In this document: in pieces, positions 7,741-41,505 of the stretch
Layout: every line of letters starts with the position of its first letter
How positions within the stretch are numbered: the stretch's first letter is position 1
DNA from: Acidobacteriota bacterium
Lineage (GTDB): Bacteria > Acidobacteriota > Terriglobia > Terriglobales > Acidobacteriaceae
DNA length: 56,087 nt
Direction of reading: 5' to 3'
NCBI GenBank assembly: GCA_013289795.1
Contig: JABCZH010000020.1
Coordinates: 1-56,087 of the forward strand
The notes under the pieces: model-generated
Seen by the model: the letters and a program-made list of their open reading frames with translations, nothing else
Databases searched by the model: none
Told to the model about the DNA's origin: nothing
Made by a program: the position numbers and the translations under genes

Positions 7741-9510
7741 ATGCAGTGGACGCAGATCTACGACCCACTGGGCCATTGGTGGCTCTCCACGCTGGTGGCG
7801 GCGCTTCCCATCATCGTTCTTTTTGGGTTGCTCGCCGGCCTCAAAGTTAGGCCACATTGGTGTGCCATCGCGGGCGCGTCGACGGCGGTGGCGGTTGCGA
7901 TCACCTTTTTCGGGATGCCTCCCGCGCTAGCCGCAATTAGCTTTGGCTACGGAGTCGCTTTCGGCGTATTGAAGATAGCCTGGATCGTTCTGGCCGCCGT
8001 CTACCTCTACGACATTTCTGTCGAGACCGGACAATTCGAAATCATGAAGGAGTCGGTCGCCGGAATCACCTCGGACCGTCGGCTGCAAGTCTTGCTGGTG
8101 GCTTTTTGTTTTGGAGCGTTCATTGAGGGAGCGGCAGGATTCGGCGCGCCGGTGGCGATTGCCGGTGCCTTCATGATCGGGCTCGGTTTCAAACCCTTCC
8201 ACGCGGCTGCATTGAATCTGATCGCGAACACCGCGCCGGTGGCCTGGGGAGCCATCGGCACGCCAGTTCACACACTCGCGGCGGTAAGCGCTCTGCCGGA
8301 ATCCGACCTTAACGCCATGCTTGGCCGGATTCTTCCTTTCACGGCAATCATCGTCGCCTTTTGGCTGGTGAAAGCGATGGTGAGTTGGAAGGAAACCCTC
8401 GAAGTGCTTCCCGCCATCCTGGTGGTCGGCATCTCATTCGCTCTCACCCAGTTCTTCTGGTCGAATTACGTGGACAGCAATCTGGTGGACATTATGGGAG
8501 GCGTCGTATCGATCGTTGCTACCCTGATTTTCCTTCGCTTCTGGAAGCCAAAGAAGATTTGGCGCTTCGACTACGACAACAAAGCCCCAGCGATTCCTGC
8601 ACCGACAACGGAGATCGCCGACCAGCTTGGTGGCGAGTGGTCGGCAGAGAAGTTCGATGGACTTGTCAAAGTGCGCACCTACAGCGCTGGACAAGTCTTG
8701 AAGGCATGGATGCCTTTCGCGATCCTGTCACTCTTTGTTCTTCTCTGGGGGTTGCCGGCGATAAAACTAGTCATGAATCGGGCTACCACGCCGGCTTTCC
8801 GAGTTGTGCTTGCCGATGGCAAGGTTCGCCCCGGGCCGCCGGGATGGAATGTGCCTTACCTCCACAATGCGATCTCTCGCGCGGTGCCGGTGGTGGCGAA
8901 GCCGACTCCCGAAGCCGCGCGCTACGATTTCAACTGGCTCTCCGCCACGGGGACCGGATGTTTCCTGGCCGCCATCGTTTCCGGATTGTTGCTCGGTCTG
9001 AGTCCAATGCGATTGATGAACACATTTTGGCAGACCCTGGTGCGAATGCGGCTCGCCATGATTGCCATTTCATTCATGTTGGGGCTTGGCTATGTGACGC
9101 GCTACTCCGGCCTGGACGCGGTATTGGGCCTGGCGTTCACGCGCACGGGATGGTTGTATCCATTTTTCGGGACATTCCTGGGCTGGCTGGGTGTCGCGCT
9201 GACCGGTAGCGATACCTCCTCTAATGCGCTCTTTGGCAGTTTGCAGAGAATCACCTCTCAACAACTCGGCATCGATCCGGTCCTCATGTGTGCGGCTAAC
9301 AGCGCCGGAGGGGTGATGGGAAAAATGGTGGACGCACAGTCCATCACAATTGCCACTTCCGCAACCGAACAGGTGGGCAACGAAGGAATCATTTTCCGCT
9401 TTGTGGCGTGGCACTCGGTTGCCCTCTGCTCTATTGTGGGGGTAATCGTGATGCTCTACGCCTATGTTTTCCCATTTGCAGTACCGCATGGGTTGCTGTT
9501 CGTGAAATAG
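7741..9510 (+). CDS. lldP: L-lactate permease
   Basis: 589 aa integral membrane protein of the LctP family, with 12-14 hydrophobic segments and the highly conserved stretch 'FGAFIEGAAGFGAPVAIAG' near residue 122. Further family marks are 'NTAPVAWGAIGTPVHTLA' and, near the C-terminus, 'LTGSDTSSNALFGSLQ' and 'ANSAGGVMGKMVDAQSI'. It imports lactate (or glycolate) with protons. The ATG at 7741 has a good AGGAGG site. A central hydrophilic loop of about 60 residues (near 270-330) is usual for the family. The SDR oxidoreductase starts 30 bp downstream, so the two are probably co-transcribed. No lactate dehydrogenase lies nearby. Confidence 0.92.
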   Translation: MQWTQIYDPLGHWWLSTLVAALPIIVLFGLLAGLKVRPHWCAIAGASTAVAVAITFFGMPPALAAISFGYGVAFGVLKIAWIVLAAVYLYDISVETGQFEIMKESVAGITSDRRLQVLLVAFCFGAFIEGAAGFGAPVAIAGAFMIGLGFKPFHAAALNLIANTAPVAWGAIGTPVHTLAAVSALPESDLNAMLGRILPFTAIIVAFWLVKAMVSWKETLEVLPAILVVGISFALTQFFWSNYVDSNLVDIMGGVVSIVATLIFLRFWKPKKIWRFDYDNKAPAIPAPTTEIADQLGGEWSAEKFDGLVKVRTYSAGQVLKAWMPFAILSLFVLLWGLPAIKLVMNRATTPAFRVVLADGKVRPGPPGWNVPYLHNAISRAVPVVAKPTPEAARYDFNWLSATGTGCFLAAIVSGLLLGLSPMRLMNTFWQTLVRMRLAMIAISFMLGLGYVTRYSGLDAVLGLAFTRTGWLYPFFGTFLGWLGVALTGSDTSSNALFGSLQRITSQQLGIDPVLMCAANSAGGVMGKMVDAQSITIATSATEQVGNEGIIFRFVAWHSVALCSIVGVIVMLYAYVFPFAVPHGLLFVK

Positions 9511-31818: not shown

Positions 31819-34485
31819 ATGTTTCGACGCAAGCGCAAGACGAACGACTTCGGCGCTGAAATCGAATCCCACATCGAACTGGAGACAGAACGCCTGCAGG
31901 AACAGGGGCTCACCTATGAAGATGCCCGAACCGCAGCACTCCGGGCTTTTGGCAACGTGACCCGGGCGCAGGAGCGCTTCTACGAGTCCGGCCGCTGGCT
32001 CTGGGGGGACGATTTCTGGCACGACATTCGCTATGCCCTGCGCATGCTGCGCAAGCAGCCAGCCTTCACCCTCGTGGCGGTTCTGACCCTGGCTTTGGGC
32101 ATCGGAGCCAACACGGCCATTTTCAGCATCGTGAATGCAGTTTTGTTGCGTTCTCTTCCCTTCGCCCACCCCGACCGGCTGGTGAAGATCATCGCCAACA
32201 ATCACGGGGTGGGGGCGAGGGATGTTGGGCTCTCCGTTCCCGAACTGGACGATCTTAGATTAAGGGCAGGCGTCTTTGAACAAGTGTCCGCTATGGCCAC
32301 AGGCGACACTAATTTGACCGGCGCACAGCGTCCGCAACGTCTCGAACTAGCGGTTGTGAGTCCTAACTATTTTTCCATGCTCGGCGCCTCGGCGCACATC
32401 GGACGAGTTTTTGGGCTTAGCGACGAGGTGCCGGGTTTCGCGGAAGCGGCCGTGATCAGCGATAGTCTGTGGGCCAGCGGGTTCGGCAGGGATCCCGGAA
32501 TTCTGGGGCGAAAGTTGCAGCTCGATAATGATCCCTACACGATTGTCGGCGTTCTTCCCCCCGGATTCCGCCATCCGGGCACCGCTGTCACGGATGTCGA
32601 AGTATGGGCAGCATCGGGATACAGGGCCGATCCCTACCCGAAACCAGAGCGCAGCCTGCGAGTGGCGACCGGAGCGATCGGGCTTTTGAAGCCTGGCATC
32701 AGCCGGGAGCAGGCGCAAGCGCGGTTGGATGCGTTTGCGGCCCAGTTAAGGGCAGAATACGCCACCGATTATCCGGCGGGGTCGGGCTGGTCGATTGAGG
32801 TCGAGCCATTGCAGGAGTCGTTGGTGGGCAATGTCCGGCCTATGTTGTTGGTGTTGATGGGCGCGGTGGTCCTGATCATTTTGCTGGCCTCCGTCAACGT
32901 TGCGAATCTTCTTCTAGTCCGGGCGTCTGGACGGCAACGGGAAATGGCTGTACGTCTGGCCCTGGGGGCAAGCCGCGCGCGCATGATTCGGCAGTTGCTC
33001 ACCGAGTCGCTGATACTGTCTCTGGTCTCCGGCATCGTCGGCGTGCTAACCGCCATGGCGGCTTTGCATTTTGTGCAGTTTCTGCCCGCCAGAATTCCCC
33101 GGCTGGCCGAGGTGCAGATGGATTGGACGGTGCTGGCCTTCGCCTTGTTGGTTTCCCTTCTGGCCGGGCTGGGGTTTGGTTTGGTACCGGCCCTGCAATC
33201 GTCGAAAGCCGAAATTGCTCTAGCCATCCGGGAAGGAGCCCGGGGATCAGGCACGAGTGGTAAAACCAACCGCTTGCGCGGCCTGCTGATCGCCTCAGAA
33301 TCGGCATTGGCCGTGGTGTTGATGGTAGGAGCGGGGCTGCTGTTGCGCACGTTTTGGGGACTGCTTCAGGAAAATCCTGGGTTCAATCGCTCAAACATTG
33401 TCATCGCCGATACCCGGATTCCCGTACCCAACAACCCCCAATTGAATCGCTACGCCCAGCCTGAGAGCTTGAACACTTTTGTGCGGGAAGTTCTGCGGCG
33501 CGTGCGTGCCATCCCGGGCGTCGATCTAGCCTCCATGACCACGGATTTGCCGGTCACTCACTTGTCGCAACGCTTCCCCATCAACATTGAAGACCGGCCG
33601 GACGAGTCTCGCAAAGGCTTGTTTTCCGAAACCACCAGTGTGACCCCGGAATATTTCAAGGTGTTGCAGGCTTCGTTGGTGCGCGGACGTTGGTTCGAAG
33701 AAGACGATCAGTCCGGCAAACAACCGGTGGTCATCGTGGATGAGAGCACGGCTCGAACCTACTGGCCGGACCGCGATCCCATTGGCCGGCGTTTGAGTAT
33801 TGGACGTGCGGCCACCTGGTGGAACGTGGTGGGAGTGGTCAAGGACATCAAGAGTGATGGTCTCGACCAATTCGGAAACCCCCACATCTACACGCCGATT
33901 TACCAGTTCCCTGAAATTCAGGGTGTTGATTTCTTTATAGGGGCCGGTCCTTTAAGCGTGACCGTCCGGACATCTTTGTCATCCGCGAGCCTGGAGCCGC
34001 AGATACGCCGGGAGATCAAGGCCATCGATCCAGGTCTGCCGGTATTCAATGTGCGTGCGATGAATGAGGTCATCGACAGTTCTCTGGCTTCGCGCCGCTT
34101 TTCCGCTCAGTTAGTAGGTGTGTTTGCGGTCGTGGCGCTTCTGTTGGCGTCGGTGGGAATTTACGGTCTGTTGGCCTACACGGTGGGTCAGCGGTCTCAC
34201 GAAATCGGGGTGCGGATGGCGTTGGGCGCTATGCCCTCGACCATTGGAAAAATGATCGTGAGCCGGGGCGTGGGACTGACCGGCATCGGAGTGGTAATCG
34301 GTCTCATACTGTCGGGAATCATGGCTCCCATGATTTCCACCCTGCTGTACGGAGTCCGGCCGCTTGATCCGGAGGTGTTCTTGGCCGTGCCGTTGATTCT
34401 GATGGTGGTCGCGCTCCTGGCCAGTTACGTTCCGGCGCGGCGGGCGGCAAGGGTAAGCCCGAGTGTCGCATTGCGAGATAGTTGA
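31819..34485 (+). CDS. ADOP permease 1 (MacB/FtsX-like, with N-terminal prefix)
   Basis: 888 aa. A cytoplasmic prefix of about 70 residues (MFRRKRKTNDFGAEIESHIE...) precedes the first membrane helix ('FTLVAVLTLALGIGANTAIF'), a MacB-like periplasmic domain, three FtsX helices, then a second periplasmic domain and three more FtsX helices. This duplicated layout is the 'acidobacterial duplicated orphan permease' family. MacB-type permeases transmit force from a cytoplasmic ATPase to periplasmic partners; none is encoded nearby. It follows padR by 3 bp and is closely similar to the permease at 36532. Confidence 0.9.
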   Translation: MFRRKRKTNDFGAEIESHIELETERLQEQGLTYEDARTAALRAFGNVTRAQERFYESGRWLWGDDFWHDIRYALRMLRKQPAFTLVAVLTLALGIGANTAIFSIVNAVLLRSLPFAHPDRLVKIIANNHGVGARDVGLSVPELDDLRLRAGVFEQVSAMATGDTNLTGAQRPQRLELAVVSPNYFSMLGASAHIGRVFGLSDEVPGFAEAAVISDSLWASGFGRDPGILGRKLQLDNDPYTIVGVLPPGFRHPGTAVTDVEVWAASGYRADPYPKPERSLRVATGAIGLLKPGISREQAQARLDAFAAQLRAEYATDYPAGSGWSIEVEPLQESLVGNVRPMLLVLMGAVVLIILLASVNVANLLLVRASGRQREMAVRLALGASRARMIRQLLTESLILSLVSGIVGVLTAMAALHFVQFLPARIPRLAEVQMDWTVLAFALLVSLLAGLGFGLVPALQSSKAEIALAIREGARGSGTSGKTNRLRGLLIASESALAVVLMVGAGLLLRTFWGLLQENPGFNRSNIVIADTRIPVPNNPQLNRYAQPESLNTFVREVLRRVRAIPGVDLASMTTDLPVTHLSQRFPINIEDRPDESRKGLFSETTSVTPEYFKVLQASLVRGRWFEEDDQSGKQPVVIVDESTARTYWPDRDPIGRRLSIGRAATWWNVVGVVKDIKSDGLDQFGNPHIYTPIYQFPEIQGVDFFIGAGPLSVTVRTSLSSASLEPQIRREIKAIDPGLPVFNVRAMNEVIDSSLASRRFSAQLVGVFAVVALLLASVGIYGLLAYTVGQRSHEIGVRMALGAMPSTIGKMIVSRGVGLTGIGVVIGLILSGIMAPMISTLLYGVRPLDPEVFLAVPLILMVVALLASYVPARRAARVSPSVALRDS

Positions 34486-34538
34486 AGCCAGGATTCAGAT
34501 TGCGGTCGAACTCGCAGAGAACAAAAGGAGAGTCATTC

Positions 34539-35723
34539 GTGAGAACCTTCTCAGTGTTGTCTTGTCTGCTGCTGGTTGTTGCTGCCACGCAATTAACGCA
34601 ATCGCAGAACTCCCCCACCGAGAATCAAAGCGATCCGAAAGCGGCACCAACAGTCTATTCCAAGGTTCCACAGGCCAACGCGCTTTACATCCAGGGTCTG
34701 GATTATCTAAGCAAGAGCAACACATGGAGGGAGGGCGGTTCCCTGGTCAACGCGCGCGAAGCGGTCCGCCTTTTCAGTCAGGCAGTGAAAAAAGATCCTC
34801 AATTCGCCCTCGCGTACCTCGGCCTGGCGGATGCCTGGGATAGTTTTGGATTCTCGATTCCCGGTAGCGTTCCGGCGGTCAAGCTTTACCCGCACGAGAT
34901 TTCTGCCGCTCTCACGGCCGAGAAATTGGACGACAACCTGCCCAGTGTACATTCCCTACTCGCCAGCCTTTACTCCGATAACGCGTACGACTGGGAGAGC
35001 GCCGAACGCGAATATAAGCGGGTCATCAGCATGACGAACAGCATGGCCTCTCACTCCGGGTACGCTACCTTCCTTGCAACCCAGGGTAGGTTCGAGGAAG
35101 CCATCGCAGAGGTAAAGTTGGCGGAGAAGATCGACCCCTCAAGCCCGTCCGCCAATAAGGACATGATGGAGATCTACTATTGGCGGCATCAGGATGATCA
35201 AGCCCTGGAACAAGGCCGGGAGTTGGTGCGCAAGGCCCCACAAATCTTCTACGCGCATTTCATAATGGGCTTTGCCTACGTCCATAAGGGTGAGTTTGAG
35301 AACGCAATCCGGGAGTTCAAGTTATCCACGGTGCGGGGCGATGCCGGCTCGCTCTCGGCTCTAGGCTACGCCTACGCCATGTCTGGGAACAAAGCGGAGA
35401 CCAAGAATGTGCTCTTGCGGTTGAAACACCATAGTGGGGCCAAGAATGTCCCGTATCGTAGGGCTGCGATTTATCTCGCATTAGGCGACAGAGACCGGGC
35501 GATCAAACTCATCGAAAAAGACTACCGGCAGCGGAGTAACTGGCTAAACCGGTTGAATGTTGATCCGGTGATGGACCCGCTCCGCGACGATCCCCGGTTT
35601 ATAGCCTTGATGCGCAAGATGAATTTTCAACGCGATGCTCGCGAGGCGTCTCCTAATGGGGGTAGTCAATCGTCTGGAGATGGGGAGAGGTCGACGACTG
35701 AACTTGAGCACTTCAGTGACTAG
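34539..35723 (+). CDS. Exported TPR-repeat protein
   Basis: 394 aa from the GTG at 34539, which has an AAAAGGAG site; the upstream ATG at 34482 overlaps the permease end. Signal peptide 'VRTFSVLSCLLLVVAATQL' is followed by tetratricopeptide units: 'ALYIQGLDYLSKSN', 'AVKKDPQFALAYLGLADAW', 'HSGYATFLATQGRFEEAIAEVKLAEKIDP' and 'FAYVHKGEFENAIREFKLST'. It is probably a periplasmic scaffold for its neighbours in the ADOP-DinB cluster. No enzymatic motif is visible. Confidence 0.82.
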   Translation: MRTFSVLSCLLLVVAATQLTQSQNSPTENQSDPKAAPTVYSKVPQANALYIQGLDYLSKSNTWREGGSLVNAREAVRLFSQAVKKDPQFALAYLGLADAWDSFGFSIPGSVPAVKLYPHEISAALTAEKLDDNLPSVHSLLASLYSDNAYDWESAEREYKRVISMTNSMASHSGYATFLATQGRFEEAIAEVKLAEKIDPSSPSANKDMMEIYYWRHQDDQALEQGRELVRKAPQIFYAHFIMGFAYVHKGEFENAIREFKLSTVRGDAGSLSALGYAYAMSGNKAETKNVLLRLKHHSGAKNVPYRRAAIYLALGDRDRAIKLIEKDYRQRSNWLNRLNVDPVMDPLRDDPRFIALMRKMNFQRDAREASPNGGSQSSGDGERSTTELEHFSD

Positions 35724-35765: not shown

Positions 35766-36347
35766 ATGATGAAGCGGTCTTCGCTTGCGCTAGTTGCCTT
35801 CACTTTGCTTGCCGTCGTCGGAACCAGTCCTTACACTCAGGGCCAACCGCAGAATCAAGCTCCGCTTCCTGCGCGCTCCCGAGCCGACGAGACGCTGGCA
35901 ATGTGGAATGACATCGGGAACAAACTCATCGCCATGGCCCAGGATTTTCCCGAAGACAAGTACGATTTCAAGCTGCAGAAAGATCAGCGCACCTTTGCAC
36001 AAACTATTCTGCACGTCGCCGCCGTCGACTACGACCTGATGCGTTTGGCTTCTGGATCAAACATCGGGCCCGACTTCGGCAAGAACAAGTACGACCCTTC
36101 GCGAGACGTTTACAGGACCAAAGCCGACGTAGTGAAACTGATTCAGCAGGCAGTCGCGGACGGAGCGAACGTGATTCAACAGCAGGGCGATGCGGGCCTG
36201 GACAAGACGACGAAATTTCCGTTTGGGAACAGGCTAGTCCACAATTCCTACACTTGGATGTTCGTCATCGAGGATAGTGGCGAGCACTACGGACAGCTGG
36301 CGGTGTACTACCGCGCCAACAACATGGTGCCACCGGCGTCGCGGTAA
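35766..36347 (+). CDS. Exported DinB-like protein 1
   Basis: 193 aa from the ATG at 35766 (AAAGGAG upstream). A signal peptide runs to about residue 26. The four-helix DinB domain follows, with a His in 'TILHVAAVDYDLM' and the C-terminal 'EDSGEHYGQLAVYYRANNMVPP'. In metal-binding DinB proteins the last helix carries HxxxH; here the first His is Asp (E-D-S-G-E-H), so metal binding may be weakened. It closely resembles the N-terminal domain of the fusion protein at 39058. DinB proteins are usually cytoplasmic, so export is notable. Function unknown. Confidence 0.8.
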   Translation: MMKRSSLALVAFTLLAVVGTSPYTQGQPQNQAPLPARSRADETLAMWNDIGNKLIAMAQDFPEDKYDFKLQKDQRTFAQTILHVAAVDYDLMRLASGSNIGPDFGKNKYDPSRDVYRTKADVVKLIQQAVADGANVIQQQGDAGLDKTTKFPFGNRLVHNSYTWMFVIEDSGEHYGQLAVYYRANNMVPPASR

Positions 36348-36531
36348 TGCCTGGGGCGTCAAGGCCTGCGGCCCCAATCTAGCGAGACTTTTCCGAATGA
36401 GTTCCGTCTAACCGGGAATGCAAAACCTGGAATACCGAATTTTAGCGCGTTGGCAACGGCTGATCAGAGCCGGTTGAAACTGGCTGGATTCTGTGGATGG
36501 TCTGCCTATCAGCCCGCTCGAGGAGGTTCTG

Positions 36532-39015
36532 ATGACTACGTTATTGCAGGACGTGCGGTACGCACTACGGCTTCTGCGGACGAACCCCGGTTTTACCGTT
36601 GTGGCGGTTCTTTCCCTGGCTTTGGGCGTCGGAGCCAACACCGCGATTTTCAGCATCGTGAATGCCGTCTTGCTTCGTCCTCTGCCTTACCGCGACTCCG
36701 ACCGTTTGGTAAGAATCTACTTTAACCAGCCCGGCATAGGATTGCGGGACGTTGCGTTTTCCAAGCCCGAAATGGATGACCTGCGGACGCGAGCCGGTGT
36801 CTTTGAAGATGTGACCCCGGTTCTCGAGGGCAGCGACATTATGACCGGCGCCAAACAGCCCGAGCGTCTCGAGGGGCTCAGTGGCAGTTTTAGCTACTTT
36901 TCCATGCTGGGTGCGACCCCGCAAATTGGACGGTTGTTTGGTCCCCAGGACTTCACCCCCGGTTTCGCTTCAGTGGTCGTGATCAGCGATGGCCTATGGC
37001 GCCGTGGCTATGGCGCCGATCCGAACGTTCTCGGCCGTACCCTCCGTCTCGACAATGATCCCTATACAATTATCGGGGTCCTGCCACGCGGATTTCGCCA
37101 TCCTGGACCGACAGTTTCCGGCGACGTGGACGTGTTTGGCGCCGGCGGATTCAGCGGAGATCCCTTTCCCCCACCAATCCGTGGTAACCGGGTTTTAGGA
37201 TCTGGAATCGGCCGACTTAAGCCGGGCCTGACACTGGCGCAAGCTCAGGCGCGGCTCACTGCCATGACCGCCGAATTGCGCCACGACTTTCCTACCGATT
37301 ACCCGCCGCAGGCGCAATGGACAATTGAGATTCAACCATTGCGAGAAACTTTGGTAGGCAATGTCCGGCCCATGCTGCTGGTGTTGCTGGGTGCGGTAAT
37401 CCTGATCGTTTTTATCGTATCGTTGAATATTGCCAATCTTCTATTGGCGCGCGCTTCGGGGCGACAACAAGAGATGGCGGTGCGCTTAGCGGTGGGGGCG
37501 AGCCGCGGCCGCATGGTGCGCCAGATGCTGACCGAGTCCCTGCTGCTGTCGCTCATCGGCGGTGCCGCGGGAATCGCAACCGCGGTTGGTGCTTCAGGCT
37601 TCATCCTGCGCTTTGTGCCATCGAACGTTCCCCGGCTCAACGAAGTACGAATCGACTGGGTGGTGCTGGCCTTCGCTCTGCTGATTTCCATTCTCACCGG
37701 CTTAGTGTTTGGACTTGCTCCAGCGCTTCACTCGGCAAAAGTCACTCTCTCCTCGGCCATTCGTGAAGGCGGTCGCGGTTCGGGCTACAGCGCTACGACC
37801 GGTCGATTGCGGGATGTTCTAATCGTCTCGGAACTGGCCTTTGCCGTCATACTGATGGTGGGAGCCGGCTTGCTGCTGCGCACGCTGCGGGACCTGTTGC
37901 AGGAAAATCCAGGCTTTAGTCCAACTCAAGTTGTCACTGCAAACATCTGGCTTCCGGTTCCCAACGATCCGAAGACGGATCCGTATCTCGATATTCCTCG
38001 CAGAGCCACCTTTAATCGTGAGTTGCTGCGGCGCATGAAGGCAATTCCGGGAGTGGAACTCGCCGCAATCACCTCATCTCTACCGACCACCAATAGCAAC
38101 CCCAACGCGGTCGGTGGCTTGGAGATTGAAGGCTTGGCGATTGAAGATAGACCGGTCGAGTCCTCGCAGGATCTGAGCGCCGAGAGAATTCGGATAAGCC
38201 CCGATTATTTTAAGGTGTTGCAGGCCACGCTCCTACGCGGCCGCTCATTCACCGAGGGCGATGAAGACGGCAAACAGCCGGTGGCCATCATTGATGAAAG
38301 CACCGCTCGTAAGTATTGGCCAACCCGCGATCCGCTGGGCCGCCAAGTGCGGTTCGGACAAGACCCTACCAAGCCATGGTCGACCATCGTGGGTATTGTT
38401 AAGGATATCAAGAGTGACGGTCTCGACATCGATGGCGTTCCCCACATCTACGTTTCGACCTATCAAGACTCCAGCAAGCATGTGGACGTGGTGTTGCGGA
38501 CGTCTCTGCCCGCGGCCCTGCTCGAACCACAGATTCGGCATGAAATCCAGAGCATTGATCCCGGCTTGCCGGTATTTAATGTTTCTTCGATGAATGACGT
38601 GCTTGATCGCTCGCTGGCGTCGCGTCGCTTCTCCGCCCAATTGGTGACTGGGTTTGCCGGACTGGCGCTCCTTCTGGCATCCATCGGGATCTATGGCTTG
38701 CTGGCCTACATGGTCAGCCAAAGATCGCGCGAGATCGGCCTTCGCATGGCCCTCGGAGCGCAGCGAGGGAACATTCTCAAGCTGATTCTGCAAAAAGGGA
38801 TTGGCCTCGCCGGCGTCGGAGTCATTGCCGGCGTAATCCTATCTGCCTCTACGGCGTCGCTGATGGCCAGTGTGCTTTACGGCGTGCGTCCGCATGATCC
38901 GGCGGTATTCGTGATCGTGCCTCTGCTTTTGTTTTTCGTCGCCGGACTGGCCAGCTACCTTCCCGCCCGGCGCGCAACCAAGCTGGACCCAATGATTGCC
39001 CTTCGCGAGGCATGA
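36532..39015 (+). CDS. ADOP permease 2 (MacB/FtsX-like, no prefix)
   Basis: 827 aa from the ATG at 36532 (GAGGAGG site). It starts directly at 'MTTLLQDVRYALRLLRTNPG', so it lacks the 70-residue prefix of permease 1, but is otherwise collinear and closely similar, including 'SLALGVGANTAIFSIVNAVLL' (near-identical in both) and 'SRRFSAQLV ... SIGIYGLLAYMVSQRSREIGLRMALGA' (cf. 'HEIGVRMALGA' in permease 1). It very likely arose by duplication. No ATPase is adjacent. DinB-like genes lie on both sides. Confidence 0.9.
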   Translation: MTTLLQDVRYALRLLRTNPGFTVVAVLSLALGVGANTAIFSIVNAVLLRPLPYRDSDRLVRIYFNQPGIGLRDVAFSKPEMDDLRTRAGVFEDVTPVLEGSDIMTGAKQPERLEGLSGSFSYFSMLGATPQIGRLFGPQDFTPGFASVVVISDGLWRRGYGADPNVLGRTLRLDNDPYTIIGVLPRGFRHPGPTVSGDVDVFGAGGFSGDPFPPPIRGNRVLGSGIGRLKPGLTLAQAQARLTAMTAELRHDFPTDYPPQAQWTIEIQPLRETLVGNVRPMLLVLLGAVILIVFIVSLNIANLLLARASGRQQEMAVRLAVGASRGRMVRQMLTESLLLSLIGGAAGIATAVGASGFILRFVPSNVPRLNEVRIDWVVLAFALLISILTGLVFGLAPALHSAKVTLSSAIREGGRGSGYSATTGRLRDVLIVSELAFAVILMVGAGLLLRTLRDLLQENPGFSPTQVVTANIWLPVPNDPKTDPYLDIPRRATFNRELLRRMKAIPGVELAAITSSLPTTNSNPNAVGGLEIEGLAIEDRPVESSQDLSAERIRISPDYFKVLQATLLRGRSFTEGDEDGKQPVAIIDESTARKYWPTRDPLGRQVRFGQDPTKPWSTIVGIVKDIKSDGLDIDGVPHIYVSTYQDSSKHVDVVLRTSLPAALLEPQIRHEIQSIDPGLPVFNVSSMNDVLDRSLASRRFSAQLVTGFAGLALLLASIGIYGLLAYMVSQRSREIGLRMALGAQRGNILKLILQKGIGLAGVGVIAGVILSASTASLMASVLYGVRPHDPAVFVIVPLLLFFVAGLASYLPARRATKLDPMIALREA

Positions 39016-39057
39016 ATTGGCCGTCTCTACAGCTCGGCAATATAGGGAGGATTTCCG

Positions 39058-40818
39058 ATGAAGGGGTCGTCGAAACGATTCGCAGTCGCTGTACTTTCGG
39101 TTGCTCTGCTTGCCCTCGCCGCAGCAAGTCTCTACGGTCAGGCGCAGTCGCAGAATCAACCTCCGAGTCCTGCGCGCTCTCGATCCGATGAGATGTTGGA
39201 CAGATGGAACGACATCGGGAACAAACTTGTCGCCATGGCCCAGGATTTTCCCGAGGACAAATACGACTTCAAGCTGCAGAAAGAGGAGCGCACCTTCGCA
39301 GAGAATATTCTCCACGCCGCCGCACTGGATTTCGTCCTGATACGCAGGATTTCCGGATCCAACCTCGGACCCGACTTCGGCGAGGGCGACAATCCTTCGC
39401 GTGACGCCTTCAAGACCAAAGCCGACGTCGTGAAGTTCGTGCAGGAAGCCATCGCGGATGGAGCGCAAGTGATTCAACAGCAGGGCGACGCGGGCCTGGA
39501 CAACACCTCGAAATTCTTTGGGAACCGGCTGGCCCACAACTCCACAATCTGGGCGTTTGCCATCGAGCACAGCGGCGAGCACTACGGGCAGCTGGTTGTG
39601 TACTACCGTGCGAACGACCTCGTGCCACCGGATACGCGGCGGCATCAGGCGCAACAGCCGCTGGCTGCACGTGTGGTTGATCTCAAGGCATCCGACGGCA
39701 CCATCCTCAAGGCCAGCTACTTCACCGCGGCCAAGCCCGGCCCCGGTGTGCTGTTGTTCCATCAGACCAACCGGACACGCAAGGATTGGGACGCGGTTGC
39801 CACGCAACTGGCGGGGGCGGGAATCAACACGCTTACCCTCGATATGCGTGGATTCGGCGAAAGCGGCGGCACGCGGCATGACAAGCTGACGTCCAAGGAG
39901 AGATCACAGGTACGCCAGCAGAGGCCCACTGACATTGACACCGCGTGGCAATATCTGGTCTCGCAATCAGGTGTCAATCGAGACGTCATCGGCCTGGGAG
40001 GGGCCGGGTTGGATGGTGTGGAGAATTCCATCGAGACGGCAGGCCGGCACTCCGCGCAGGTGAAATCGCTGGTATTGCTTTCCGGACAAACCGAATTGGC
40101 TGGCCGGCAGTTCGTGCGGCAGTCGTCCCAACTGCCCGGCCTCTTTGTCTGGGCTAACCACGACGACTACCCTCCCACCGCCGAGGTGATGGAATGGCTC
40201 TACGGCATCTCCCCCAACCCGGGTAAAAAGTTTATCCACTATGCTGGAGAAGAAGCGCCCTGGCTTGGATATGAAAGTACCGACGTACCCGCCACCGGGA
40301 GCCACGGAACCGACCTGTTCAAAACTCATCCCGATCTGCCCGGCATCATCGTGGATTGGTTTGTAACCACGCTCATCAAGACACCTGGTCAAGCGCCAGC
40401 CAACAACCATGGCTCGGCGGGCTCGATCTCGATCCCCATCCTCAACCAAATCGAGGCCCCCGGCGGAACTGCTGAGGTCGCGCAGCAACTGATGGAAGCC
40501 CGGCGAAAAAACCCCCAGGCGGAGTTGTGGCCGCGAATTCTCGTGAATGTCATGGGCTATGACAACATGCAGGTGGGCAACGTGACGTTAGCGCTCGAAA
40601 TCCTTAAGCTCAATGTCCTTGCCTATCCGGAATCGGCCGACGCCAACGATAGTGTTGGCGATGCGTACTTGGCAAATGGAGAGAAAGATCTGGCGCGCCA
40701 ATATGCCGAAAAGGCATTGGCCCTACTGGCTTCCGACACCCAGGAGTCAGAGGCGAGGCGCGCGGTCATACGCGACAGCGCCCAACAGAAACTCAAGCAG
40801 CTCGATCCGGCCCATTGA
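39058..40818 (+). CDS. Exported DinB / degenerate alpha-beta hydrolase / TPR fusion
   Basis: 586 aa. Signal peptide (1-27); DinB domain (about 35-195) with H in 'ENILHAAALDF' and a full HxxxH in 'IEHSGEHYGQ'; alpha/beta-hydrolase domain (about 205-440); and a C-terminal TPR-like region (about 470-586; 'LAYPESADANDSVGDAYLANGEKDLARQYAEKAL'). In the hydrolase the nucleophile elbow reads G-A-G317-L-D-G instead of GxSxG, so the serine is lost. The acid (D369 or D370) and the histidine (H416, GSHGTD) remain. It is probably a binding or structural pseudoenzyme. A good AGGGAGGA site precedes the ATG. Confidence 0.82.
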   Translation: MKGSSKRFAVAVLSVALLALAAASLYGQAQSQNQPPSPARSRSDEMLDRWNDIGNKLVAMAQDFPEDKYDFKLQKEERTFAENILHAAALDFVLIRRISGSNLGPDFGEGDNPSRDAFKTKADVVKFVQEAIADGAQVIQQQGDAGLDNTSKFFGNRLAHNSTIWAFAIEHSGEHYGQLVVYYRANDLVPPDTRRHQAQQPLAARVVDLKASDGTILKASYFTAAKPGPGVLLFHQTNRTRKDWDAVATQLAGAGINTLTLDMRGFGESGGTRHDKLTSKERSQVRQQRPTDIDTAWQYLVSQSGVNRDVIGLGGAGLDGVENSIETAGRHSAQVKSLVLLSGQTELAGRQFVRQSSQLPGLFVWANHDDYPPTAEVMEWLYGISPNPGKKFIHYAGEEAPWLGYESTDVPATGSHGTDLFKTHPDLPGIIVDWFVTTLIKTPGQAPANNHGSAGSISIPILNQIEAPGGTAEVAQQLMEARRKNPQAELWPRILVNVMGYDNMQVGNVTLALEILKLNVLAYPESADANDSVGDAYLANGEKDLARQYAEKALALLASDTQESEARRAVIRDSAQQKLKQLDPAH

Positions 40819-40902: not shown

Positions 40903-41505
40903 ATGAAACACATACGAATCCTCTTGCGAGCAGCAGTATTCATCTTTGCCGTGACCGCCTTGGCGCAGAGCACCAACGGCGCCGCGGCACCTCAACCGCA
41001 ACCATCATCGCCGGCAACCATAGCTTCAGTTGTGGACCGCGAGATCAGCAACGTCGAAAAGCAAATTGTGGATGTTGCCGAAGCCATGCCGGAAGATAAA
41101 TACAACTTTTCTCCCGAGAGCTTGAACGTTCCTGGCAGCGACTACAAGGGTGTGCGCACCCTTGCCTCTCAGGTCAAGCATGTCGCCGCTTCCAACTATG
41201 CAATATGGTGGCGGCTTACCGGCGATAAGTTCCCCGAAAACTTCATGGGTGGCGACGGCCCTGAGAGTGTGAAGACCAAAGCCGACATCATCAAGTTCCT
41301 GAAGGATTCTTTTGCTCTGGGTCACAAAGCCGCGGCTACCTTAACTACTCAGAACATGCTTCAGACTGCGGAGGGCAGCAAATCGACCCGCCTGCGCCTG
41401 GCGGTATTTGGCGTCGAACACGCCTTCGATCATTACGGACAGATGGTGGAGTACTTGCGCATGAATGGAATTGTGCCGCCAGCCAGCCGTAAGCCGTCAG
41501 ACTGA
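40903..41505 (+). CDS. Exported DinB-like protein 3
   Basis: 200 aa from the ATG at 40903 (AAGGAAA upstream). Signal peptide 'MKHIRILLRAAVFIFAVTALA' is followed by a DinB domain with H in 'SQVKHVAASNY' and an intact HxxxH in 'GVEHAFDHYGQMVEYLRMNG', so a metal site is plausible. It is more diverged from the other two DinB copies than they are from each other. It is the last gene of the ADOP-DinB cluster, and converges on the phosphatase gene with 28 bp between stops. Confidence 0.8.
   Translation: MKHIRILLRAAVFIFAVTALAQSTNGAAAPQPQPSSPATIASVVDREISNVEKQIVDVAEAMPEDKYNFSPESLNVPGSDYKGVRTLASQVKHVAASNYAIWWRLTGDKFPENFMGGDGPESVKTKADIIKFLKDSFALGHKAAATLTTQNMLQTAEGSKSTRLRLAVFGVEHAFDHYGQMVEYLRMNGIVPPASRKPSD

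Follow-up and report, generated by a model that had tools for sequence, protein, structure and literature searches.

A serine-less alpha/beta-hydrolase-like domain joined to DinB in Acidobacteriota, with a pocket that may have been reused

In the window (the whole stretch of acidobacterial DNA that was analysed, 56,087 nucleotides long), the forward-strand open reading frame 39058-40818 encodes a protein of 586 amino acids that joins a DinB domain, an alpha/beta-hydrolase-like domain and a TPR-like helical tail. In the hydrolase-like domain, glycine stands in place of the nucleophile serine, as it does in a whole clade of acidobacterial relatives, and the alignment of the family lends good support to a loss of serine-hydrolase chemistry. 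The reading that we favor, with slightly better than even confidence, is that the domain is a pseudo-serine-hydrolase with a reused pocket, which would act as a ligand or partner module for the metal-site DinB domain.

The gene is preceded by a purine-rich, ribosome-binding-site-like AGGGAGGA before the ATG (39044..39051, forward strand, as are all features of the gene), and residues 1-28 (39058..39141) form a hydrophobic, signal-peptide-like N-terminus; both were read by eye, and the structural model has a helix at residues 5-27. Judging from this hydrophobic N-terminus, the protein is probably exported. The DinB domain, supported by Pfam DinB_2, the model and the alignment, occupies residues 42-195 (39181..39642) and contains the metal-site histidines H86, H171 and H175. 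It is followed by the hydrolase-like domain without nucleophile at residues 205-445 (39670..40392), recognized by family profile against solved hydrolases and by a low-confidence model, and by the TPR-like helical tail at residues 468-585 (40459..40812), recognized by TPR profiles and the model. In the single-sequence Pfam scan, DinB_2 matched residues 56-179 above its curated cut-off (E 3.5e-8), while Hydrolase_4 (231-274, 6e-5) and TPR_16 (506-558, 0.0098) fell under theirs; the best NCBIfam matches on the hydrolase part reached about 26 bits against their cut-offs of 400 and 203. None of the Pfam and NCBIfam models listed for the protein covers more than one of its domains. The tri-domain architecture proposed in the preliminary description is borne out by the open reading frame itself, by the DinB_2 match above cut-off and by the family profile matches of the hydrolase-like and TPR-like parts.

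The same in-frame fusion of DinB and hydrolase occurs in three genomes, namely that of the window, that of locus L001 (the same record as G068) and that of L072 (G286), and it is therefore no assembly artefact. Three further loci (L051, L055 and L059) had been suggested as N-terminal fusions by the length of their reading frames, but a search with the DinB profile gave no match in any of the three. The window's own genome holds no other match to the hydrolase part at E 0.001; the DinB part matches in 12 other places, one of these matches covering just 30 residues, and the TPR-like tail in five.

Structural comparison places the DinB domain in the four-helix DinB fold. The full-length model was built from 17 alignment rows, two of which extend over the hydrolase. 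In it, the DinB blocks (residues 41-190) mostly exceed a pLDDT of 80, the lowest being 67, and the tail exceeds 70 only from residue 521. The DinB fold was matched to 2qe9_B by Foldseek (1.5e-4) and, by VIA-align, to DinB/YfiT chains, best to 3gor_D (Z 17.0; 143 residues superposed with an rmsd of 2.6), followed by mycothiol S-transferase 8f5v_A (Z 15.8) and by EgtB chains (10.5-13.5) and DfsB (12.8), for which it should be kept in mind that the tool treats Z under 13 as cautionary for helical bundles; OvsA chains were also among the matches. Among the 17 aligned DinB rows, H86 and H175 are invariant and H171 is present in at least 90%, and all three fused DinB domains have the complete three-histidine set. 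The fused DinB of the window shares both its fold and its three histidines with the DinB/STL superfamily (YfiT/BstA, mycothiol S-transferase, DfsB), from which the protein differs in being probably exported and in carrying two further parts, hydrolase-like and TPR-like, on the same chain. These three histidines are described as the only fully conserved residues of the eight Bacillus subtilis enzymes (PMC5815605). As for the tail, it gave Z 9-10 to TPR chains, a range which the tool warns may reflect a common arrangement, and its family profile matched consensus TPR designs over many repeats, at best with 2.3e-39.

Relatives of the hydrolase and tail parts were collected in two steps. Residues 197-586 gave matches at 1e-12 in 24 of the 200 family genomes searched. 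An 18-member profile (A1) was then run at 1e-40 on overlapping sets of genomes and matched in 29 of 397 from the order, in 39 of 399 from the class and in 20 of 396 from the phylum. The genus-wide search covered the window's own genome only, and viral contigs yielded no relatives. Fourteen matches from the order and class sets were left unclassified; 76 distinct members were kept, and 75 were aligned after exclusion of the broken copy L052. Damaged copies were seen in both classes: L043, of the serine class, has one internal stop, and in the glycine class L052 has several and L087 carries its tail in a second frame.

Within the alignment, 59 members have the elbow G-[A/G]-S-x-G, and 16, including the window protein and the truncated L111, which reads GPG, have G-[A/P]-G-x-x-G, in which the elbow is longer by one residue. 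In the window protein this former nucleophile elbow is IGLGGAGLDGV (residues 311-321, 39988..40020), with Gly317 at 40006-40008, exactly the residue reported before in place of serine. A strict count, from which L110, L111, L132, L133 and L117-L131 are excluded, gives glycine at column 317 in 15/15 glycine rows and serine in 41/41 serine rows. The alignment of orthologues that had been proposed as the check for a pseudoenzyme thus returns a conserved non-serine residue in all 15 longer rows of the clade, and a sequencing error or one-off mutation at 317 is ruled out, as Gly317 is common to the whole clade. No other elbow nucleophile offers itself: in the 15 glycine rows, the next two columns hold W, L, S, V or A and L, D, H or V, and neither Ser nor Cys nor Asp is conserved there.

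The other two members of the triad are retained. D369 (40162..40164, followed by D-YPP) and H416 (40303..40305) are present in all 56 rows of the strict count. The preliminary description had named both correctly but left the acid open between D369 and D370; from the alignment, the acid is D369, because aspartate occupies this position in all 56 strict rows, position 370 is variable in the serine rows, and D369 aligns with the acid of the MHETase 9pjb in the profile alignments. Of the features of catalytic serine alpha/beta-hydrolases, the GxSxG elbow is therefore missing from the window protein and from all 15 longer clade rows, and the acid and histidine are in place. A separate observation concerns two cysteines of the serine relatives, Cys237 in the loop after H235 and a cysteine at 319, directly after the elbow serine. 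They co-occur in 57/75 rows, both are missing from the other 18 (the 16 glycine members and the serine outgroup L132 and L133), and one is never found alone; perhaps they form a disulfide that links the oxyanion-hole loop to the elbow and that was lost in the glycine clade.

The loss of serine can be placed in the family tree, which has 61 rows (12 near-copies, L110 and L111 being omitted from the 75). The 15 longer glycine rows form a single clade with support of 100/100 and in 100% of 200 bootstrap trees, the tree being made without columns 236-238, 313-321 and 395-413 but with other clade-specific columns retained. When rooted on L132 and L133, the glycine clade is nested within the serine rows, and the direction of change is read for this reason as a loss of serine. 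That the nucleophile was lost once is well supported by this topology, in which a single change suffices. The clade spans the family codes f1, f6, f7 and f52, and one genome (G107) carries both a glycine and a serine member. It remains one lineage, so its contrast with the serine relatives does not amount to many independent events.

Around the former active site, the clade has acquired residues of its own. Positions fixed in the glycine clade and found in fewer than 30% of 43 serine rows include Y371 and P373, which come after the acid, T418 and D419, which come after the histidine, and A400, P401, W402, Y405 and E406, which lie in a segment missing from all 43 serine rows compared. This clade-specific insertion covers residues about 396-413 (40243..40296) and reads APWLGYE in the window protein, where residue 404 is glycine and not the tryptophan of the 14 other glycine rows. 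Further clade-specific positions lie away from the active site (258, 344-364 and the tail). Invariant columns make up 26/56 of the active-site segments and 47/184 elsewhere (p 0.0045, for segments that were picked after viewing the alignment).

Because the hydrolase part was modeled with low confidence (block mean pLDDT of about 28-61 in the full-length model, and 39.4 when the domain was predicted by itself), the pocket is derived from residue order in the sequence. In this poorly modeled part, strands and helices follow an order that fits an alpha/beta-hydrolase fold, with a helix beginning at 317, which lends the fold weak support. The best solved matches of the hydrolase profiles are MHETase and S33/Hydrolase_4-like chains: the serine-class profile reached MHETase 9pjb at 1.1e-16, with its serine aligned to that of GLSMG in 9pjb, and the glycine profile reached it at 4.3e-11. 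The dienelactone-hydrolase-type likeness expected beforehand holds in part, as dienelactone hydrolase 9n2w was matched at 5.3e-5, by the serine profile only, but the MHETase and S33/Hydrolase_4-like chains match better. With these proteins (9pjb, 7qjm and 7q4h), the window family has in common the position of the acid and a profile match that extends over the N-terminal half; it differs from them in having glycine for serine, one extra elbow residue and an extra segment before the histidine.

The invariant Asp-His dyad counts against the reading as a pseudo-serine-hydrolase binding module, since it exceeds what plain binding would require, and for the same reason serine-independent catalysis is its main rival. 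According to this alternative, Asp369 and His416, together with the new Tyr405, Glu406 and Asp419, would carry out chemistry such as proton transfer, epimerisation, a lyase reaction or oxygenation. The dyad is kept in 15/15 glycine rows, new invariant acidic and aromatic residues lie near it in sequence, and the glycine profile also reaches 6t6h (BotH, an atypical serine-less epimerase with a hydrolase fold) at 3.1e-5. This match, however, spans only profile positions 6-86 of 240, so that the active site is outside the compared span, and many ordinary hydrolases score better; moreover, the conserved histidine and aspartate may be structural or bind a ligand. We consider a repurposed enzyme of this kind possible but clearly the less probable explanation.

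Genes of the glycine clade often have DinB as a fusion partner or neighbor, which was not seen in the serine relatives examined. In the window, a same-strand run comprises a MacB/FtsX-type permease (31819-34485), a TPR protein gene (34482-35723), a separate DinB gene of type A (35766..36347), a second MacB/FtsX-type permease immediately 5' of the fused gene (36493..39015), which is ADOP-like, the fused gene itself, and a DinB gene of type C (40903..41505), whose ATG lies 84 bases 3' of the fused gene; the permeases and DinB genes were identified with Pfam, and the two permeases interleave with the DinB genes. The type A DinB is 67-71% identical to the fused DinB, and in it the middle metal-site histidine is replaced by aspartate (IEDSGEHYGQ), a position at which its nearest relative found (L011) has histidine. 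In G286, the type C gene is found 2.4 kb downstream of the fused gene.

Across the family, 7/17 glycine loci but 0/59 serine loci have a DinB that is either fused to the hydrolase gene or lies no more than about 1.5 kb from it (Fisher p 9e-6), a count that includes L052 and L111, has shorter flanks at contig ends and yields a p value that ignores shared ancestry. Three of the seven are the fusions, and in four (G191, G268, G266 and G603) DinB is adjacent. Serine loss thus reaches beyond the fusion with DinB: three of the 17 glycine loci are fused, and at 10 no DinB lies within about 1.5 kb; when longer regions are taken, 9/16 have none nearby.

The DinB proteins concerned are of two types. The fused DinB is of type B, and the DinB beside the four unfused glycine genes is of type C. 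Type B also occurs as a solitary gene (L002, L003, L004, L006 and L008, 80-84% identical) and on other contigs in G266 (85%) and G107 (83%), and 4 of 15 genomes with a glycine member gave no match to it at 1e-20. Tandems were found with type B before C (L005 and L009) and with C before B (L010), and a type-A relative stands beside type C in L011. In the window, the pseudo-hydrolase thus lies between types B and C, which are direct neighbors elsewhere. The fusion may have arisen once: its three DinB domains form a group at 68/93 and in 70% of 200 bootstrap trees, and the hydrolase parts of the three fused genes branch without resolution in the family tree. Two smaller observations were made in these regions: at 6738-6920 of L009, a 61-codon open stretch with a hydrolase-like piece follows the DinB B-C tandem and looks like a remnant, and in L001 a gene for an FGE-sulfatase domain (7845-8801) begins shortly 3' of the fused gene. 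An ancient single loss of the nucleophile, followed by retention of a rebuilt active-site region, suggests that an old hydrolase has taken on a new role alongside DinB.

A wider neighborhood raises a second alternative, in which the pseudo-hydrolase would be an envelope-stress factor that acts with genes under BlaI/M56 control and with an exported-type amidohydrolase, the link to DinB being secondary. Within 5.5 kb, 16 glycine regions were compared with 20 of the 59 serine loci, some regions ending at contig ends and the reference proteins being drawn from glycine regions; M56 was found in 8 versus 0, BlaI in 7 versus 0, amidohydrolase in 5 versus 0, type C DinB in 6 versus 0 and type B in 3 versus 0. 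The permease was about equally frequent (3/16 and 4/20). Read by eye, DinB, M56, BlaI or amidohydrolase, alone or together, occur in 12/16 glycine regions. In seven unfused glycine loci (L135, L136, L139, L141, L142, L143 and L145), recurrent same-strand runs place a BlaI-type repressor and/or an M56 peptidase upstream of the pseudo-hydrolase, which comes last; four of these runs contain the amidohydrolase and two a type C DinB. Against a primary role in envelope stress, the fusions of the window and of G068 lack all three partners within 5.5 kb, and the origin of the reference proteins biases the count toward the glycine regions. We therefore regard this explanation as improbable.

The glycine genes are under purifying selection, which is looser than in five serine control pairs. 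After a 66% identity filter, 34/105 glycine pairs remained, 33 of which gave values of dN/dS, all between 0.07 and 0.38, with many dS near saturation. In the 10 glycine pairs with dS under 1, the ratio is 0.17-0.38, against 0.11-0.22 in the five serine pairs, and both fused-gene pairs among those listed give 0.34. Plain decay, with the hydrolase part a passenger since the nucleophile was lost and retained through fusion or co-transcription, would agree with this looser constraint, with the broken L052 and with the out-of-frame tail of L087, but it is the least probable of the explanations, being opposed by the age of the clade, which spans several families and includes unfused genes, by ratios far lower than 1 and by the invariant residues that the clade has of its own at the former active site.

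The pseudo-serine-hydrolase reading can be put as a sequence of steps. The middle domain would descend from a serine hydrolase with GxSxG, Asp and His, whose nucleophile was lost once in Acidobacteriota. Without a nucleophile, the route through a serine acyl-enzyme is closed, and the protein would no longer form such an intermediate. The rebuilt pocket (Asp369, His416, Tyr371, Trp402, Tyr405 and Glu406) may instead bind a ligand, which, by analogy with other multidomain DinB proteins, could be presented to the metal-site DinB domain with its His86, His171 and His175; the TPR-like tail may dock a partner in the cell envelope.

Both halves of this picture have precedents, as proteins with a hydrolase fold but no nucleophile serine are already known, and so are DinB proteins of several domains. 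NDRG, neuroligins and BotH have lost the nucleophile and kept the fold; compared with these proteins, which serve only as precedents, the window family is bacterial, linked to DinB and has kept both acid and histidine. In EgtB, DinB is joined to a second domain of the FGE-sulfatase type. EgtB and other multidomain DinB proteins likewise begin with DinB and continue with a domain of a different fold, which in the window protein is serine-less and hydrolase-like. In two multidomain DinB enzymes, specificity for the co-substrate is believed to be determined by the second domain (PMC5815605). Searches of open-access papers did not find the combination of DinB, a serine-less hydrolase-like domain and TPR.

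A bolder proposal, which we put forward only tentatively, is that of an undescribed acidobacterial class of former serine hydrolases, with elbow and active-site loops remodeled around a surviving Asp-His dyad, which would either carry out a new, non-hydrolytic reaction or sense an envelope metabolite and hand it to an exported metal-site DinB, with relatives under BlaI/M56 envelope-stress control. The family offers a clean natural case of a single switch from enzyme to pseudoenzyme, in which serine relatives can be set against a lasting serine-less clade whose gene partners have changed. The fused or adjacent partner may also be a clue to the substrate of exported-type DinB proteins in Acidobacteriota.
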